From positions 62,001-126,000 of the forward strand of contig NZ_FODD01000026.1 in NCBI RefSeq assembly GCF_900110255.1: a DNA stretch of 64,000 bases. Direction: 5' to 3'. The stretch comes from Actinacidiphila rubida. Its GTDB lineage: Bacteria > Actinomycetota > Actinomycetes > Streptomycetales > Streptomycetaceae. The translations under genes and the position numbers were made by a program. The notes beneath the pieces are model-generated. The model had not been told where the DNA came from and did no database searches. It worked only from the letters and a program-made list of their open reading frames with translations. Below, one piece after another: positions 49,326 through 63,565 of this stretch (positions within the stretch are counted from its first letter, which is position 1; each line of letters starts with the position of its first letter).

Positions 49326-49751
49326 CTAGCGCTCGTCCGACACCTCGACGCCGAGCTCGGCGAGGAGGCCCGCGACGCGGCGGTGGATCTCGTCGCGGAT
49401 GGGGCGCACCGCGTCGACCCCCTGACCGGCCGGGTCGTCGAGCCGCCAGTCGAGATACCGCTTGCCGGGGAAGACGGGGCAGGCGTCGCCGCAGCCCATG
49501 GTGATGACGACGTCGGAGGCCTGGACGGCGTCGGAGGTCAGCACCTTGGGCACCTCGGCGGAGATGTCGATGCCCACTTCCTCCATGGCCGCCACGACGG
49601 CGGGGTTGACCGCGTCGGCGGGCGCCGAGCCGGCCGAGCGGACCTCGGCGCGGTCACCGGCGAGGTGGGTCAGGAAGGCCGCGGCCATCTGCGAACGCCC
49701 GGCGTTGTGGACGCAGACGAACAGCACGGTCGGGACGGCGGGGGTGCTCAC
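49326..49751 (-). CDS. arsC: Arsenate reductase, LMW-phosphatase fold
   Basis: 141 aa. CVHNAGRSQ near residue 13 is the CX5R phosphate/arsenate loop, and MGCGDACPVFPGKRYLDWRLDDP near 84 carries the two resolving cysteines and the general acid of thioredoxin- or mycothiol-linked reductases. It turns arsenate to arsenite in the cytosol. It is the last gene of the arsR-aquaporin-arsC operon. Confidence 0.93.
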   Translation of the reverse strand: MSTPAVPTVLFVCVHNAGRSQMAAAFLTHLAGDRAEVRSAGSAPADAVNPAVVAAMEEVGIDISAEVPKVLTSDAVQASDVVITMGCGDACPVFPGKRYLDWRLDDPAGQGVDAVRPIRDEIHRRVAGLLAELGVEVSDER

Positions 49752-49770
49752 AGAAGTTCCTCGGGTCGGG

Positions 49771-50616
49771 TCAGGGGTTGGTGGGGGCGGGGCCGGTCTC
49801 CCCGCGGGCGGGGACGGCGGCGGGTGCGGGGACGGCCGCGGCTGCGGGGACGGCGGCGGCTGCGGGGACGGCGGCGGGTGCGGCGGTCGGTGCGGCCGCG
49901 GTCGGTGCGGCCGCGGGTGAGGCGGCCGCGGGGGTGGCGCGGCCGAAGACCGCCGCGACGAGGACGAGGCCGGCCACGGCCCCGGCGCACTGCGCGGCGA
50001 CGAAGGGTGCGACCGAGGCGGGGGCGATGCCTGCGAAGGTGTCGGAGAAGGCGCGGCCGATCGTCACCGCGGGATTGGCGAAGCTGGTGGAGGACGTGAA
50101 CCAGTACGCGGCGCCGATGTACGAGGCGACCGCGACGGGGGCCGCGCGCCGCTGTCCGGTGCGGCCGAGGCCGAGGACCAGCAGGATCAGGCCCGCCGTC
50201 GCCACGACCTCGCCGAGCAGCAGGTGCCCGGCCGACCGGTCGTGCGCGGACCAGCGGACCAGCGGGTGGGCGAACATCGCGTCGGCCAGGACCGCACCGC
50301 CGATCGCGCCCGCGATCTGCGCGGGGACGTAGACGGCGAGGTCCCGGGCGGGCAGGCCGTCCCCGTCCGCCCGGCCGGTCCACCACGCGGCGAGGCTGAC
50401 GACCGGGTTGAAGTGCGCGCCGGAGACCGGGCCGAGCAGCGCGATCAGCACGCCGAGGCCGAAGACGGTGGCCAGGGAGTTGGCGAGCAGTTGCACGCCG
50501 ACGTCGTGGGACAGGCTCGCGGCCTGGATTCCCGAGCCGACGACCACCGCGACCAGAGCGGCCGTGCCGGCACACTCCGCGACCGCCCTGCGGCGCAGCG
50601 GAACCGCGTCGCTCAT
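49771..50616 (-). CDS. Aquaporin-family channel (MIP), arsenite channel-like
   Basis: 281 aa, six membrane helices with the two pore loops HFNPVVSL near residue 69 and FANPAVTI near 175. The C-terminal tail is a long Ala/Pro/Val repeat. It overlaps arsR by 4 bp and precedes arsC, the same setting as AqpS of rhizobia, where the channel lets arsenite leave the cell down its gradient. No ArsB or Acr3 pump is present here, which supports that reading. Channel selectivity itself is not shown by the sequence. Confidence 0.88.
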   Translation of the reverse strand: MSDAVPLRRRAVAECAGTAALVAVVVGSGIQAASLSHDVGVQLLANSLATVFGLGVLIALLGPVSGAHFNPVVSLAAWWTGRADGDGLPARDLAVYVPAQIAGAIGGAVLADAMFAHPLVRWSAHDRSAGHLLLGEVVATAGLILLVLGLGRTGQRRAAPVAVASYIGAAYWFTSSTSFANPAVTIGRAFSDTFAGIAPASVAPFVAAQCAGAVAGLVLVAAVFGRATPAAASPAAAPTAAAPTAAPAAVPAAAAVPAAAAVPAPAAVPARGETGPAPTNP

Positions 50617-51056
50617 GCCGGGGCACCGGCCCGCTCGGGGGCCGGTGCGGTCCGCAGGAGCGAGGAGAGGCGGGCGAGGGCGTCCGGGATCACCCAGTAA
50701 TAGACCCAGGTCGCCCGCCGCTCGCTGCCGACCAGGCCCGCTTCCCGCAGCACCTTCAGGTGGTGGGAGATCGTCGGCTGGGACACGTCGAACGGGCCGG
50801 TCAGGTCGCAGACGCACGCCTCGCCGCCCTCGTGGGAGGCGATCAGCGAGAGCAGGCGCAGGCGCACCGGGTCGGACAGCGCCTTGAACATGCGCGCCAG
50901 GTCGGCGGCGTCGGAGGCGTCGAGGGGTTCGCGGACCATCGGCGAGCAGCACGCCGCGTCGGCGGGGGTGCCGGCTCCTGCGCCGCTGCCGGTGCCGGTG
51001 CCGGTCTCGTCCTGGCCGAGGATCGGCAGCTCTGTCCGCTGCCCTGACTTAGACAT
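50613..51056 (-). CDS. arsR: ArsR-family repressor
   Basis: 147 aa. The disordered N-terminus contains a Cys pair (DAACCS) and is followed by a winged helix: MFKALSDPVRLRLLSLIA, CVCDLTGPFDVSQPTISHHLKVL. The CVCDL cysteines are the classic arsenite sensor. It probably represses this operon and the divergent arsI gene from sites in the 97-bp shared promoter. ATG 51056. It is the first gene of the operon. Confidence 0.92.
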   Translation of the reverse strand: MSKSGQRTELPILGQDETGTGTGSGAGAGTPADAACCSPMVREPLDASDAADLARMFKALSDPVRLRLLSLIASHEGGEACVCDLTGPFDVSQPTISHHLKVLREAGLVGSERRATWVYYWVIPDALARLSSLLRTAPAPERAGAPA

Positions 51057-51107
51057 GCGTCTATGTTGACACCTGTCGAATCCCCTGGCAACCTCGGACG
51101 TGTCGAG

Positions 51108-51131
51108 CTGTATCGATGAACGTCGATACAG
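51108..51131. promoter_or_regulatory. Candidate ArsR operator in the arsR-arsI intergenic region
   Basis: CTGTATCGA (51108-51116) and its complement TCGATACAG (51123-51131), spaced by 6 bp, between divergent genes. This is the best dyad in the region. Confidence 0.65.
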
Positions 51132-51153
51132 AAGTCCTGTCAGAGGAGACGCC

Positions 51154-51642
51154 ATGTCCCGCGTCCAGCTCGCCCTGCGTGTCGCAGACCTCGAAGGCTC
51201 CGTCGCCTTCTACTCCCGGCTCTTCGGTACCGAGCCGGCCAAGCGCCGCCCCGGCTACGCCAACTTCGCCATCGCCGAGCCCCCGCTCAAGCTCGTCCTC
51301 ATCGAAGGCGGGGGCGACGACGAGGGCGGCTCCACCCGGCTCGACCACCTGGGCGTCGAGGTGGAGTCCACCGAGGAGGTCGCCGCCGCGACCGGCCGCC
51401 TCCGGGAAGCGGGCCTGGCGACGTTCGAGGAGAACGACACCTCCTGCTGCTACGCCCTCCAGGACAAGGTCTGGGTCACCGCCCCCGGCAACGAGCCCTG
51501 GGAGGTCTACGTGGTGAAGGCCGACGCCGGCACCCTCGGCAAGAGCGCACCGGCGTCCGCGCCCGACGCCACCTGCTGCGCGGCCGGCGGCCGCCCCGAG
51601 CCCGCCTCCACCGCCACCGGCGGCTGCTCCTGCGGCGGCTGA
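51154..51642 (+). CDS. arsI: ArsI/CadI-like vicinal-oxygen-chelate protein (C-As lyase)
   Basis: 162 aa. VOC fold (LALRVADLEGSVAFYSRLFG, DHLGVEVESTEEV). DTSCCYALQDKVWVTAPG near residue 107 holds the paired cysteines that bind trivalent arsenicals in ArsI, and EPWEVYVV holds the metal-site Glu. ArsI uses Fe and O2 to cut methyl or aromatic groups from arsenic. The C-terminus adds CC and CSC cysteines. ATG 51154 follows GAGGAG. CadI (cadmium-induced) is the alternative name, but the arsenic context favours ArsI. Confidence 0.85.
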   Translation: MSRVQLALRVADLEGSVAFYSRLFGTEPAKRRPGYANFAIAEPPLKLVLIEGGGDDEGGSTRLDHLGVEVESTEEVAAATGRLREAGLATFEENDTSCCYALQDKVWVTAPGNEPWEVYVVKADAGTLGKSAPASAPDATCCAAGGRPEPASTATGGCSCGG

Positions 51643-52524: not shown

Positions 52525-54102
52525 TCAGGGTGGGGTGTTGGCGCGGGAGGCGGCTTCGTCGAGGAGGGCGGGGAGGTCGGTGAGGCGGTCCAGGCCGTGG
52601 ACGGCACGGGCGGTGCGGGGGTTGGCGGCGAGGCGGGTGCGGTGGCGGTGCAGGAAGGACCAGTAGCCGGCGGTGTAGGGGCAGGCGTGCTCGCCGGTGC
52701 GGTCGGTGGGGCGGTAGGCGCAGGCGCCGCAGAGGTCGCTCATGCGGTGGAGGTAGGCGCCGCCCGAGGTGTACGGCTTGGTGGTCATCAGGCCGCCGTC
52801 GGCGTACTGCGACATGCCGACGACGTTCGGCAGCATCACCCAGTCGTAGCCGTCGACGAAGCAGCGGTGGAACCAGTCGGTGACGGCGGCGGGGTCCCAG
52901 CCGTCCTGCAGCGCACGGCTGCCGAGGACCATCAGCCGGGGGATGTGGTGGGTCCAGCCGGTGTCGCGCACCTGGGCCAGCACCGTGGACAGGCAGTTCG
53001 CGGTGACCGCGTCGGCGTCCAGTTCCAGGAACCACTCCGGCAGCGGCGCGGTGTGGCGCAGCACGTTGCGGTGCCGGTAGTCCTCACCGAAGTGCCAGTA
53101 CAGGTGCCAGACGTACTCGCGCCAGCCGGCGATCTGCCGGACGAAGCCCTCGACGCTGTTGAGCGGCGCGTCGCCCGCGCGGTAGGCGTGTTCGGCGCGC
53201 TCCACGCACTCGGCCGGGTCGAGGAGGCCGAGGTTGAGGGGCGCGGACAGCAGGCTGTGGCTCATGACGGGGTCGGCCGCGAGCATGGCGTCCTCGTAGC
53301 GGCCGAAGTCGGGCAGCCGGTGGGTGACGAAGCGGCGCAGCGCGGACAGGGCCTCGCGCCGGGTCGCGGGGAAGCGGCGCGGGCCGTCGCGGCCGACGAA
53401 CGCGATGTCGCCGGCCCGCTCCCAGCGGTCGAGGTCGCGGCGGACCTCGTCGTCGACGGCGTCCTCGTGGGGCTGCCAGGGGCCTTCGACGTCGAGGGTG
53501 TCGCGCCCGCGCGGCGGGGGCTCGCGGTTGTCGTGGTCGAGGTTCCACCGGCCGCCGGCCGGCTCGCCGCCGTCCATGAGGAGGCCGTGGCGCTCGCGCA
53601 CCCAGCGGTAGAAGCCCTCCAGCCGCAGGCTCCGCCCGCCGCCGCGGCCGGCCCACCCCGCGAAGTCGTCGTGCGACACCAGGAAGCCCCTGGCCGGCAG
53701 GACGTCGACGCCGACATCCCCGCGCGCGCTCGCGTTCCCGTTCCCGTTCGCATTCCCGTCGCCGCCCAGCGCCCGGACGAAGTCCAGCGCCGCGCGTGAC
53801 GTGGGATGGCACACCGTCATCCGGCGCCCGCGCCCGGCGCGCCCGAGCGCCTGCTCGAGACCTTCGGCGTACGTCTCCGCCTTGACGTACGTCACCCGGT
53901 CGCCCAGCTCGGCGGCGCGGTGCCGCATCGCCGACAGCACCAGATGCGCCTTGGCCCGGTGGAAGCGGCGGCGGCGCAGCACCGACCGGGCCTCGACCAT
54001 CACGACCGGCGCCTGCGCGTCCGGCCCGCCGTGGCGCGGGTCGAGGAAGTGCGGGCCCAACTGGTCCCCGAACAGCCAGTGCGGGCGTGGCGCCACGGAC
54101 AC
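52525..54102 (-). CDS. Fe-S cluster photolyase/cryptochrome (PhrB/FeS-BCP type)
   Basis: 525 aa. The N-terminal antenna domain (LFGDQLGPHFLD) lies before the helical FAD domain. NSVEGFVRQIAGWREYVWHLYW near residue 300 and VMLPNVVGMSQYADGGLMTTKPYTSGGAYLHRMSDLC near 430 are typical. The four cluster cysteines appear in NCLSTV, LCGACAY and HACPY. Members repair (6-4) photoproducts or sense light. A Gly/Asn repeat (GNANGNGNAS) interrupts the antenna domain. Start GTG 54102 or 54096. Confidence 0.9.
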   Translation of the reverse strand: MSVAPRPHWLFGDQLGPHFLDPRHGGPDAQAPVVMVEARSVLRRRRFHRAKAHLVLSAMRHRAAELGDRVTYVKAETYAEGLEQALGRAGRGRRMTVCHPTSRAALDFVRALGGDGNANGNGNASARGDVGVDVLPARGFLVSHDDFAGWAGRGGGRSLRLEGFYRWVRERHGLLMDGGEPAGGRWNLDHDNREPPPRGRDTLDVEGPWQPHEDAVDDEVRRDLDRWERAGDIAFVGRDGPRRFPATRREALSALRRFVTHRLPDFGRYEDAMLAADPVMSHSLLSAPLNLGLLDPAECVERAEHAYRAGDAPLNSVEGFVRQIAGWREYVWHLYWHFGEDYRHRNVLRHTAPLPEWFLELDADAVTANCLSTVLAQVRDTGWTHHIPRLMVLGSRALQDGWDPAAVTDWFHRCFVDGYDWVMLPNVVGMSQYADGGLMTTKPYTSGGAYLHRMSDLCGACAYRPTDRTGEHACPYTAGYWSFLHRHRTRLAANPRTARAVHGLDRLTDLPALLDEAASRANTPP

Positions 54103-54221
54103 CGCCTCTCCCGCGCGGGCGCGCCGCACTCGTCGTCCCGCGCGCCGCCGTCACCACTGGCGTCGCGCGCCGCCGATGCTGCCAGCCGCGCACCGCGACC
54201 GCACGCCGCCGCTCCGGGCGC

Positions 54222-54986
54222 TCAGCCGAACGTCGCGATCACCCGGCCGTGCGCGTCCCAGACCGTGAGGTTCAGGGGCGGGAACGTGTCCTGTCCCGCG
54301 GCGGACGCCGGGACGTCGACGTACCCGGCCGCCCATCCCGGCCGGCCCGCCGGGAACAGCACCAGCGCGGGCCGGACGCGGCCGTCGACGGTGACGGCCA
54401 TCCGCGCGGGCGCCTGCGCCCCCCGGTACGTCAGCAGGTAGCGCACGCCGCCGTCGTAGCTGTGCGTCAGGGCGCTGACCGAATCCGCCGGCTGGTTCCC
54501 GTCCCGGTCGGACTCGTCGCGGCAGTCCCATCCGCCGCCCTCGTTCCAGTCGACGCAGCCCTCGACGGGCGTGAGCCGCAGCTTTTCGCCGTGGCCGCCG
54601 ACGTCGACGACCGCGCCCGGCGCGACCACGCGCACCGACGGCCAGTCGACGCGGGGCGACGGGGCGGCGCTCGCCGGGGGCGCCGGGGCGGCCGGTACGG
54701 ACGGGGCGTGGCGGGCCGCCGCCGGGCGGGACGCGTCGGGGCCGAGGGCCACGCCGCCCGCCACCGCGGCGACGGCGGCCACCGCGCCGACGAGGGGCAG
54801 GCAGGCCGCGATCCGCCGGTTCCGCCGGCGTCGTGCCGCACGTCCCCGCACCTCGCGGGACGGCCAGGCGTGCGGATCGATGGTGTCCGCGGCGTCGTGC
54901 AGGGCGCGCCGCATGCGTTCCTCGGGCCCGTCCGCAGCGGCCGCGTCACCGGGGCCAGCGGCCGGGTCCCAGGGCCGTCCGTTCAC
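54222..54986 (-). CDS. Membrane-anchored sensor-like protein, partner of the ECF sigma factor
   Basis: 254 aa. The cytoplasmic N-terminal 60 residues (RMRRALHDAADTIDPHAWP, then RRRRNRR) lead to one membrane helix (about 62-82). A Pro/Ala linker and an extracytoplasmic beta domain with paired cysteines (EGCVDW..WDC) follow. It is the gene after the sigma factor and so is a candidate regulator or anti-sigma-like factor. Its outer domain is paralogous to the secreted protein at 55626-56222. GTG 54986 follows GGGAGG. No zinc anti-sigma (HxxxCxxC) motif is seen. Confidence 0.7.
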   Translation of the reverse strand: MNGRPWDPAAGPGDAAAADGPEERMRRALHDAADTIDPHAWPSREVRGRAARRRRNRRIAACLPLVGAVAAVAAVAGGVALGPDASRPAAARHAPSVPAAPAPPASAAPSPRVDWPSVRVVAPGAVVDVGGHGEKLRLTPVEGCVDWNEGGGWDCRDESDRDGNQPADSVSALTHSYDGGVRYLLTYRGAQAPARMAVTVDGRVRPALVLFPAGRPGWAAGYVDVPASAAGQDTFPPLNLTVWDAHGRVIATFG

Positions 54987-55048
54987 GTCGCCTCCCACCT
55001 GCCCGTACCCACCGGTCCTTCCCCTTCCGCGTCCCCCCGCCGCGGGCC

Positions 55049-55639
55049 TCACCGCTCGCCGCCCTCGCCCGCGGCGAGCGCGGGGTGGTCGCGGAGTTTG
55101 CGCAGGCCGCGGCTGGCCTGGCTCTTGACGTTCCCGGTCGTGCAGCCCAGCACGTCGGCGACCTGCTGCTCGCTGAGGTCCTCCCAGTAGCGCAGCACGA
55201 CCACCGCCCTCATCCGCGGCGGGAGCGCGGCGAGGGCGGTGACCAGTGCGGTCCGGTTCTCGACGTCGGCGGTGGTCTCGGGCCGGCTCCGCTCCGGCAG
55301 CCGGGACGTGAGCAGGTGGACGACGCGGCGCCGGCGGAACCGGCTGAGGTTGTTGTTGGCCAGCGCGCGGTGGACGTAGGCGTCGGGCTCGTCGAGCCGG
55401 CTGATGCGCGGCCAGGCGAGATAGACCTTGGCGAGCGTCGTCTGGACCAGGTCCTCCGCCTCGTGGTGGTCGCCGGTCAGCAGGTAGGCGGTCCGCACCA
55501 GGCGCGGCCAGCGGGCCGCCGCCCAGGACTCGAAGTCCGGGTGGGCGCCCAGCGCGGCGCGGCCCCGGGACGGTACGTGTCCCGGAGCCGTGCCGCCGCG
55601 CGTGGACGCGGCGAGAGGGGGGCTCTCACAGGTGCGCAA
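55049..55639 (-). CDS. ECF RNA polymerase sigma factor (SigE/SigM-like)
   Basis: About 196 aa. Region 2 (RTAYLLTGDHHEAEDLVQTTLAKVYLAWPRI) and region 4 (RMRAVVVLRYWEDLSEQQVADVLGCTTGNVKSQASRGLRKLR) are complete. These are the marks of the actinobacterial SigE-type 'sigma-70 family, SigE subfamily' proteins. The start is unclear: TTG 55639 is a guess, with GTG 55684 inside the upstream gene also open. The gene overlaps or abuts the end of 55626-56222, so coupling with it is likely. Confidence 0.88.
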   Translation of the reverse strand: MRTCESPPLAASTRGGTAPGHVPSRGRAALGAHPDFESWAAARWPRLVRTAYLLTGDHHEAEDLVQTTLAKVYLAWPRISRLDEPDAYVHRALANNNLSRFRRRRVVHLLTSRLPERSRPETTADVENRTALVTALAALPPRMRAVVVLRYWEDLSEQQVADVLGCTTGNVKSQASRGLRKLRDHPALAAGEGGER

Positions 55640-56222
55640 GGACCGTGCCCGCGGCGTCGTACACGGTGACCTCGGGCGTCTCACCGGGGAACTGGGTGGT
55701 GGGCGGGCCCCAGACGTACCCGGTCGCGTAGCCGGGGTGGCCGGCGAGCGTGACCACGTGGACCTGGTAGGTGACGCCTCCGGCCGTCACCGTCATGCGG
55801 GCCGCCCGGCCGTCGCCGATGTACAGCGGGGAGTACAGGGTGCCGGACGCGTCGCCGTCGGACTGCAGGCTCACCGTGCCCGCGGGCTGGTTGCCGTCCG
55901 ACACGCTCTTGCAGCTGACCCACAGGGACGGCGTGCCGACGCACCGCTCGGTGCGGGTGAGCTTCAGGTACTGGCCGTGGCCGGCGTCCACCAGCTGCCC
56001 GGGCCGCACCACCTGCACGGCCGGCGCGCCGGCCGTCGAGACGGCCGCGGCGGCCCGGGCGGGCGCGGCGGCGGCCCGGGCGGGCGCGGCGGCGGCCCGG
56101 GCGGCGGCGGGGACGGCGGCGTGGGCGGCCGGGGCGGGGGCCGCGGACGCGTGAGCGGCGGTCGCGCCGAGCGTGGCCGTCGCAGCGAGGGCCGCGGCGG
56201 ATGCGAGGGTGCGCAGGTTCAT
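55626..56222 (-). CDS. Secreted protein paralogous to the sensor domain of 54222-54986
   Basis: 198 aa. A signal peptide (about 1-28, AAHASA) is followed by an Ala/Pro repeat (AAAAPARAAAAPARAAAA) and a beta domain. Shared features with the downstream paralogue are GQYLKLT.TERCVG..WVSCKS, SDGNQPAGTVSL, RAARMTVT and GHPGYATGYV. It has no membrane helix besides the signal. It precedes the sigma gene in the same operon. Function is unknown. It may be a target or a soluble mimic in the signalling circuit. Confidence 0.72.
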   Translation of the reverse strand: MNLRTLASAAALAATATLGATAAHASAAPAPAAHAAVPAAARAAAAPARAAAAPARAAAAVSTAGAPAVQVVRPGQLVDAGHGQYLKLTRTERCVGTPSLWVSCKSVSDGNQPAGTVSLQSDGDASGTLYSPLYIGDGRAARMTVTAGGVTYQVHVVTLAGHPGYATGYVWGPPTTQFPGETPEVTVYDAAGTVLAHL

Positions 56223-56372
56223 GATGCTCCTTCGATACGGTCGTTCCGGTCGCGCGGAGGACCGGGCGCCTCGTTCCTCCACCCCCTTCACTCCCGTGGC
56301 GCCGACGAGGTTGCACGGCGGGCGGGACTCCTTCTCCGCGGCTTCCCCAACACCCTTGGCAGCCGGGTCCGT

Positions 56373-61300: not shown

Positions 61301-63565
61301 ATGCGTAGACGACTGTGGCCATCCGGCATACCCAAGGGGCGGTTCCGGGCGTGGCCTGCGGCTCTTGCGACAGGCGTACTGCTCGCGGTGCTGCCGGTGT
61401 CGGCGGCCGGCGCGCAGTCGGCCGGGAAGCCGGACGTCCCCGCGCCACAAGTGCCCACAGCCCAGGGCTTCGTGGCATCAGGCACACCCGCGTGCTCGAC
61501 CGACAAGAGCGCGCCGACCGTCCTGGGCGATCCGACTCCACAGCTGACTGCGGTGGTTCACGCAGCGGCGGGCGGTGCCCAACCAGCACTGCTGAAGGCG
61601 AACTTCGTCATCCAGGCCCACCAGACGTCGACGCCGGCATGGGTCGCGGCCGTGCCGGCCCCGTCGAGCGCGGGCACGGCCACGGATGGCCAGGAGGTGA
61701 GCGCGTCGGTCGCGACCCCGCTGTCCGATGGCACGCTGTACCGGATGGCGGCCTCCACCTGGTCGTACACCAGCGACGGCACGCAGCACGTCAGCTCGCC
61801 GAGCACCGCCACCACCGCGGGGTGGTGCTACTTCACCGTGGACACCACCGCGCCGCTCGCGCCGACGGTCACCTTCGGCGGGCCGTACACCCCCTGCGGC
61901 GCGGACGACTGCGCGGCCCACGGCGGCCCCGGCGTCCCCGGCACGTTCACGTTCTCGCCCGGGGCGGGGGACTCAGGCGTCGTGGCGTACGAGTACTGGC
62001 TCGCCGGCTCGGCCACGGTCGAGGTTCCGGGCTCTCCCGCGACCGTGACGATCGCACCGAGCTCCGAGGGAACGGCCGCGCTGACCGTGCGGGCCCAGGA
62101 CGCGACCGGCGCCTGGGGAGCGCAGACGCAGGTACTGTTCCGCGTTGCCCCGCCCGCTCCGTCCGTGGGCCTCTGGCACTTCGACGACGGGCGGCCCGGC
62201 GACACCTCGACGGTCGCGGCCGACACCGCCACGGGCGCCGGCGACCGCCACGCGGCGGCGCTGTCCGCCACGGGCGCGGACTGGTCCGCACAAGGCCGGC
62301 GGGGTGACGGCGACGAGTCCCTCGCTCTGGACGGGACGTCAGGTCACGCCGCGACGGACAGCCAGGTCCTCGACCCGGCCTCGTCCTTCGCCGTGTCCGC
62401 ATGGGTGTTCCCCTTCGACCTGACTCAGGACCGCACCGTCCTGTCCCAGACCGGCGACGACGGCTCGGGCTTCGCCCTGAGCTATGCCGCGGCCGATCAC
62501 GCCTGGCAGTTCACGTATGCATGGCACGACACCGGCGGGACCAGGCACGTCGCCTACGCCCGGGCGACGGCGGGTGCCGAGCGCGTATGGACCCAGCTCG
62601 CCGGCTCCTACGACTCCGTCGCCCACACCCTCACGCTCTACATGAACGGTCGTCCGCAAGGTTCCCCCACCACGCTCCCGGCCACCGCGGCGGCTCAAGC
62701 GATCTCCGGGGACGTGGAGTTCGGGCGGGGTACCGTCGGCGGCGCCGCCGGGTCGTACGGCGCCTACTGGCACGGCCTCCTCGACGAGGTGCGGGTCTGG
62801 CAACGGACACTGTCCGCAGCCGACGCCGTTCAGGAGGCCCGCCTGGAGGACCCCGCCACCGGTGCCGTGGACGTCGCGCGGGTCGCCGCGTGGAACGCGG
62901 CGGGCGCGAGCGGCACCACGCTGCCCGACACCACAACGGGCTACGGCCGCACCCTCACCACGGAAGGCGGCGCCCTGCTGGACGGCGACTCCCTCGTCCT
63001 TGACGGTGTGGACGACGCGGCCGGAACGCCCGGTCCCGTGGTGGACGACAGCGGGTCCTTCACCGTCAGCGTCGTCGCCCAGCCGGACCTGTCGGTGATC
63101 GCCGGCAAGCCCGACGGGTGGATGGGTCAGGTCGCCGGACAGAGCTCGGCGGACGGCTCGGCGTGGGGCATCTGGTACCAGGTCGTAGGCCACGAGGACT
63201 TCCCCGACCCCGACTCCGACGGCACCCTGTCCGTCCCCGTCACCACCTGGCTCCTCGGGCGGATGGGGAACGACGGCGCCTTCACCGGGGTGAGGTCCCA
63301 GGACGTCACGGAGTGGACCCCTGGAAGCGTGAGCCTTCCGGTGCGGGTGACGGGCGTCTTGGACGCCCAGGCGGGCACGGCCTCGCTCTTCACCGGCGCC
63401 GCCCGGACCGGCGGCGGGCCCTTCACCCCGGTGCCCGGCGCCGGCGACCTCATCGTGGGGAAGGCCCACGTCAACGGCGCCTGGACCGCCTACTTCCCGG
63501 GCCGCGTCACGTCACTGGACGTGTGGGCCGGCGCGATGAGCGACACCCGGATCCCTTCCGCCTGA
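61301..63565 (+). CDS. Secreted LamG-like jelly-roll protein
   Basis: 754 aa. The signal peptide ends near residue 36 (SAAGAQSA). The following module contains TSTPAWVAAVPAPSSAGTA and VTFGGPYTPCGADDC. Two concanavalin-A-like LamG domains follow, the first with VGLWHFDDGRPGD, then SFAVSAWVFPFDLTQDRTVLSQTG and LLDEVRVWQRTLSAADAV (about residues 285-510). The second, weaker one is at about 525-754. No catalytic site is seen. It probably binds glycans or surfaces. ATG 61301 with GGGGTGGGGAT upstream. Confidence 0.85.
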   Translation: MRRRLWPSGIPKGRFRAWPAALATGVLLAVLPVSAAGAQSAGKPDVPAPQVPTAQGFVASGTPACSTDKSAPTVLGDPTPQLTAVVHAAAGGAQPALLKANFVIQAHQTSTPAWVAAVPAPSSAGTATDGQEVSASVATPLSDGTLYRMAASTWSYTSDGTQHVSSPSTATTAGWCYFTVDTTAPLAPTVTFGGPYTPCGADDCAAHGGPGVPGTFTFSPGAGDSGVVAYEYWLAGSATVEVPGSPATVTIAPSSEGTAALTVRAQDATGAWGAQTQVLFRVAPPAPSVGLWHFDDGRPGDTSTVAADTATGAGDRHAAALSATGADWSAQGRRGDGDESLALDGTSGHAATDSQVLDPASSFAVSAWVFPFDLTQDRTVLSQTGDDGSGFALSYAAADHAWQFTYAWHDTGGTRHVAYARATAGAERVWTQLAGSYDSVAHTLTLYMNGRPQGSPTTLPATAAAQAISGDVEFGRGTVGGAAGSYGAYWHGLLDEVRVWQRTLSAADAVQEARLEDPATGAVDVARVAAWNAAGASGTTLPDTTTGYGRTLTTEGGALLDGDSLVLDGVDDAAGTPGPVVDDSGSFTVSVVAQPDLSVIAGKPDGWMGQVAGQSSADGSAWGIWYQVVGHEDFPDPDSDGTLSVPVTTWLLGRMGNDGAFTGVRSQDVTEWTPGSVSLPVRVTGVLDAQAGTASLFTGAARTGGGPFTPVPGAGDLIVGKAHVNGAWTAYFPGRVTSLDVWAGAMSDTRIPSA

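Follow-up and report, generated by a model that had tools for sequence, protein, structure and literature searches.

A SigE-family ECF sigma factor encoded between secreted and membrane-anchored copies of one outer domain in Actinacidiphila rubida: a candidate self-contained signalling module

Many Streptomyces SigE-family ECF sigma factors have, to our knowledge, no known regulator. In this study, we asked what might control one such sigma factor of Actinacidiphila rubida, which is encoded between a secreted protein and a membrane-anchored protein that share an outer domain, and what the secreted copy of that domain might do. The locus lies in a stretch of 64,000 nucleotides (the window, positions 62,001 to 126,000 of contig NZ_FODD01000026.1). 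We call the three genes SEC, SIG and MEM, and on balance we favour a compact, self-contained ECF module in which MEM is the cognate regulator of SIG, SIG transcribes its own operon and SEC is a soluble copy of the sensor. The parts to which we refer are as follows.

56289..56315, minus strand: putative ECF-type operon promoter, TGCAACC-N14-GGAGTG (also conserved ahead of orthologous operons; single strict match in the 9-Mb genome)
55626..56222, minus strand: SEC, secreted protein of 198 amino acids (open reading frame and translation; orthologues)
55629..56030, minus strand: SEC outer domain, predicted Ig-like beta sandwich (AlphaFold2, mean pLDDT 91.8)
55049..55639, minus strand: SIG, SigE-family ECF sigma factor (TIGR02983, 190.6 bits; orthologues L020 and L021)
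54222..54986, minus strand: MEM, single-pass membrane protein of 254 amino acids (open reading frame, translation, BLASTP, AlphaFold2 prediction)
54813..54986, minus strand: MEM cytoplasmic segment, residues 1-58, candidate sigma-binding part (prediction and conservation; also in fusions and other ECF-linked membrane proteins)
54225..54644, minus strand: MEM outer domain (41% identity to the SEC outer domain; profile match 154 bits)

The locus and its conservation

Open reading frames and translations place SEC, SIG and MEM in this order of transcription on the minus strand, packed as an operon, in agreement with the first-pass annotation, which had proposed a secreted protein, an ECF sigma factor and a membrane-anchored protein. 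SEC begins with a plain Sec-type signal peptide that lacks a lipobox cysteine, continues with a linker rich in Ala and Pro and ends in an outer domain of 134 residues; it has orthologues at 77-79% identity in two genomes of the window's genus. The score of SIG against TIGR02983 (SigE-fam_strep) lies well above the cut-off of 141.55 bits, which places it in the SigE family. Its longest open reading frame begins at GTG 55684; translation probably starts instead from the TTG at 55639, which gives a 14-nt overlap with SEC, since the orthologues L020 and L021 overlap by the same length. MEM comprises a cytoplasmic segment, a membrane helix, a Pro/Ala-rich linker and the outer domain, and could start either at GTG 54986, preceded by a good ribosome-binding site, or at GTG 55052, where the start codon and the stop codon of SIG overlap. 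A basic run directly ahead of the membrane helix places the N-terminus inside by the positive-inside rule.

To place the locus among other genomes, we searched samples of the genus (35 genomes in the collection), its relatives, the order and the class. An outer-domain profile, built from alignment A1, had matches in 47 of the 198 genomes sampled from the order, and the class-wide sample of 246 genomes gave four borderline matches beyond the window's family; a scan of the genome contigs with the single SEC protein returned no relatives. Arrangements were read from fetched regions with the sigma and domain profiles. They comprised 22 complete SEC-SIG-MEM trios and one more interrupted by a contig end; 15 SIG-MEM pairs without SEC, in two of which the sigma match is truncated; 18 proteins that fuse sigma, membrane helix and outer domain; and 5 solo outer domains. 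The trios, pairs and fusions all come from one actinobacterial order. Gene order and strand are identical in all trios and the genes flanking the trio in the window found no match in 11 related loci, indicating that the trio is the conserved unit. The earlier suggestion of a module, and of two paralogues conserved together, therefore holds. SEC is not essential to every version of it, since some loci have MEM without SEC and a few have SEC without the sigma factor.

The neighbours of the trio in the window are a DPRP gene and a DUF2201/AAA pair, and no response regulator or kinase adjoins it among the neighbouring genes. The DPRP gene, downstream of MEM (52525-54129, minus strand), encodes a photolyase-related protein and does not lie beside the trio elsewhere; a link between this gene and the module was rejected, as the flanks are not conserved with the trio. 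Further along, positions 49326-51642 hold a likely arsenic-resistance cluster, with genes for a protein of the low-molecular-weight phosphatase/arsenate-reductase type, an aquaporin-like MIP, an ArsR-type regulator and a glyoxalase-fold protein. The same genome contains a further SIG-MEM pair (G000, contig C41, L018:7403-9234), which has diverged and has an altered sigma recognition helix and neither of the promoter forms described below. Contigs C14 and C81 of G000 (L089, L090) both carry two SigE-family genes with identical scores, reflecting terminal inverted repeats or assembly duplication.

An outer domain kept in two copies

The outer domain that the annotation had attributed to both SEC and MEM is indeed common to them (BLASTP, 41% identity over 137 residues, E = 1e-18), and the sequence blocks named for it, SDGNQPA or DGNQPA, RMTVT/RMAVT and GxPGxAxGYV, were all found. 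The paired cysteines also named are present in the window's clade; as a hallmark of the whole family they were rejected, being absent from the Streptomyces-type and Catenulispora-like copies. AlphaFold2 predicts an all-beta, Ig-like sandwich (mean pLDDT 91.8). No specific structural relative stands out (best Foldseek E = 0.02, best VIA-align Z 6.4), the matches lying within the range of common Ig-like arrangements, and when 29 members were compared with Pfam, no family was hit by more than two of them (best E = 4.6e-4, BiPBP_C). The idea that SEC and the lipoprotein CseA share an ancestor found no support: the domain profile scored -1.0, below the inclusion threshold, against the CseA-like protein taken from this genome's sigE-type locus.

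BlaR1 senses what its relative BlaZ destroys. In that pair and in RsgI-type pairs, a membrane sensor likewise has an outer domain related to a secreted partner; unlike these, no enzyme or carbohydrate-binding module was recognised in SEC or MEM.

The two copies of the domain have evolved together in several lineages. Within single loci, the SEC and MEM domains are 90% (L131), 85% (L138) and 83% (L042) identical, above the identity of either to any other locus, and their silent sites are alike at 89% in L131 and 88% in L138 (87-89% across the homogenised loci). L131 and L138 are sister loci, but a comparison of the two gives a silent-site agreement of just 64-68% for SIG, SEC and MEM. On the sigma tree, 6 switches between trio and pair are needed, whereas on the domain tree SEC and MEM interchange 15 times. 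One ancient duplication that gave rise to SEC and MEM, followed by independent drift, was rejected, as enforcing one SEC clade costs 943 log-likelihood units (p-AU 1e-91). Our reading is that an old trio has probably been homogenised repeatedly, by gene conversion or re-duplication, in several lineages. Matched domains would be required if SEC and MEM shared a ligand or made a homotypic contact. In the window's lineage, the outer domains have drifted to about 41% identity with silent sites near background (46%); homogenisation is therefore not recent there, and SEC and MEM may no longer share a ligand in this lineage.

Re-duplication could also be the whole story, with SEC a redundant tandem duplicate of the MEM outer domain that has no role. 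The variable copy numbers, with trios, pairs and solo genes, fit this idea. We consider it very improbable, however, given that 22 loci retain the order, strand, signal peptide and promoter (although no promoter motif was found for the most divergent trios) and that SEC also persists as a solo gene with no sigma factor beside it, in one case (L022) with the same promoter. A soluble sensor copy with a function of its own, as the module would have it, could act as a matched ligand-binder, a decoy or a self-signal.

The cytoplasmic segment and natural sigma fusions

If MEM is the regulator of SIG, contact would be expected through the part of MEM that lies in the cytoplasm. This segment has the consensus LRxAL..AA..vxPspvPL..IerxGRxRRRRR, followed by the membrane helix, and is conserved at least as well as the outer domain and better than the linker. 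AlphaFold2 predicts helices at residues 21-35 (a block with pLDDT of about 85-91) and 43-77, with a turn at P..WP and the second, basic helix continuous with the membrane helix. The cytoplasmic part, of about 58 residues, contains no Pfam anti-sigma domain and no HxxxCxxC, and MEM thus falls outside class I anti-sigma factors, which have a domain of roughly 100 residues, often with Hx3Cx2C. The two-helix cytoplasmic segment ahead of a membrane helix that characterises class II (CnrY-like) factors is present in the AlphaFold2 model. In CnrY, the two helices contact sigma domains 4 and 2 (PMC7406223), and MEM resembles it in its predicted short two-helix segment on a membrane-anchored protein, a likeness of topology that we regard as a lead. 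No PDB chain was matched in a sequence search with the segment, which is too short for a firm negative.

A profile of the segment, built from the separate MEM proteins, recovered 13 of the 18 fusions (best E 3.5e-11). The remaining matches at E < 0.2, against a background of 473 genes, were all membrane proteins encoded directly downstream of an ECF gene, one of them carrying an L,D-transpeptidase (YkuD) domain. Elsewhere in the A. rubida genome, several SigE-family genes are followed by single-pass membrane proteins, only one of which the profile matched well. The fusions are found at these loci.

L133, L135, L139-L146, L149, L152-L157 and L160 (for example, L146:2697-3788): fusion proteins of a sigma part, a MEM-like segment, a membrane helix and the outer domain

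In the fusions, the MEM-type cytoplasmic segment sits between the sigma part and the membrane. The 18 fusions are like the membrane-fused ECFs of groups ECF48, ECF52 (SCO4117) and ECF53 in that a sigma factor, a membrane helix and an outer domain form one protein; those groups have a zinc-finger anti-sigma domain (PMC8999054), whereas the fusions described here have the short basic two-helix segment only, and the window encodes sigma factor and membrane protein separately. Most fusions have almost no linker left between sigma regions 2 and 4, and in three that were scanned with Pfam region 4 alone was recognised, for which reasons the fusions may be degenerate sigma factors. Most are accompanied by a divergent second ECF gene, followed by one for a membrane protein whose cytoplasmic segment is of this type; at L144:1033-2569 this membrane protein carries a YkuD L,D-transpeptidase domain.

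A probably near-private promoter and a proposed sensing loop

A two-block, ECF-type promoter lies upstream of the operons, and its form follows the sigma factor encoded with it. Loci whose SIG has a KSQ recognition helix carry TGCAACC-N14/15-GGAGTG or a close form in 7 of 9 cases, and all 14 loci with a KTH helix carry TGTCATC[CG]-N15-GGNGTT. The -35 element thus tracks the recognition helix of the operon's own sigma (CAACC with KSQ, CATCC with KTH, none crossed; Fisher p = 9e-6, a statistic that ignores shared ancestry). The search did not reveal the motif in the trios that diverge most (L042, L046 and L161-L164); the recognition helices of L161-L164 differ from both KSQ and KTH, and these loci show neither form. 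Of seven genomes, six contain the strict KSQ motif a single time and one contains it twice, the module always being among the matches; in G034 it lies at an orphan SEC gene instead of the module. The KTH motif is at the module in all 14 searched genomes whose module carries it and nowhere else in 13, while G029 has two further identical copies near the two chromosome ends. A search for a wider regulon at one mismatch found none: with the modules set aside, the 25 matches in all did not clearly exceed the 17 of a reversed-pattern control. With the strict motif present about once per genome, at the operon, SIG probably serves mainly its own operon.

Some leaders and solo genes carry elements of their own. 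No leader structure common to all loci was found. Shortly after the promoter, where the mRNA presumably begins, the leaders of L125, L126, L131, L134, L136, L138 and L148 contain a conserved element that is in part palindromic, GGAGAGGCGCCC(C)TCC. Two solo SEC genes from two genera (L027:7534-8286 and L148:3194-3829) have in common a third upstream motif, CAACCGATC...GGTCTGG, which suggests control by another sigma factor.

A relative in S. coelicolor would argue for a different kind of control. There, SigE lacks an anti-sigma factor and a two-component system controls it (PMC6767563, PMC8999054). The SigE-CseA-CseBC system (ECF39) is like the module in having a related sigma factor and an exported protein, CseA, encoded in the sigma operon. 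By analogy, SIG might be governed transcriptionally, with SEC and MEM merely surface products and MEM exerting no control, and that SIG belongs to the same family and MEM has no recognised anti-sigma domain speaks for this. We nevertheless judge it distinctly unlikely. CseBC is a two-component system and the module has no such genes beside it; the sigE promoter is driven by CseBC and is not a SigE target (PMC6767563), whereas the operon promoter here matches its own sigma; and the sigma-MEM fusions, together with the conserved ECF-associated cytoplasmic segment, point to MEM.

The module that we favour would therefore work as a loop at the cell surface. The two-helix cytoplasmic segment of MEM would bind SIG, holding or activating it, while the Ig-like outer domain would sense a ligand outside, and the signal would release or activate SIG. 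Active SIG would then transcribe its own operon and, judging from the strict motif, hardly any other gene, so that SEC, the soluble copy of the sensor domain, would be the main exported product. SEC and MEM would bind the same ligand, or each other. Most likely, SEC would capture the ligand of MEM, and the signal would be both answered and damped.

Alternatively, SEC could itself be the ligand of MEM through domain-domain contact, such that the module reports its own secretion, diffusion in the wall or cell density and needs no outside ligand. That the sole strict target of SIG is the operon making SEC lends support to this idea, and homotypic contact would also predict the homogenisation of the two domains. 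It is rather unlikely in our view, as SIG and MEM occur without SEC in 15 loci, where MEM would have to work without it.

A description of the SEC-SIG-MEM module was not found in the open-access literature that we searched, which did not include the main ECF reclassification paper. The sigma family of SIG is already known; what sets the module apart is the combination of the candidate regulator segment, the outer domain, its soluble copy and the near-private promoter. We put forward, tentatively and with less confidence than the module itself, that these amount to a distinct ECF system, in which a sigma factor regulates essentially its own operon and a soluble and a tethered sensor are kept matched by repeated gene conversion. 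Such a system would form a closed surface-sensing loop with the secreted copy as its output or signal, controlled via a minimal segment that many Streptomyces ECF-linked membrane proteins would share.

Altogether, the module predicts for SigE-family sigma factors the kind of regulator that we set out to find, namely a short cytoplasmic segment on single-pass membrane proteins, which stands beside several ECF genes and within sigma fusions. It also offers a bacterial example of a receptor whose match to its own secreted copy is apparently maintained by gene conversion. The sigma factor, with a promoter that seems almost private to it, would be useful as an orthogonal switch.
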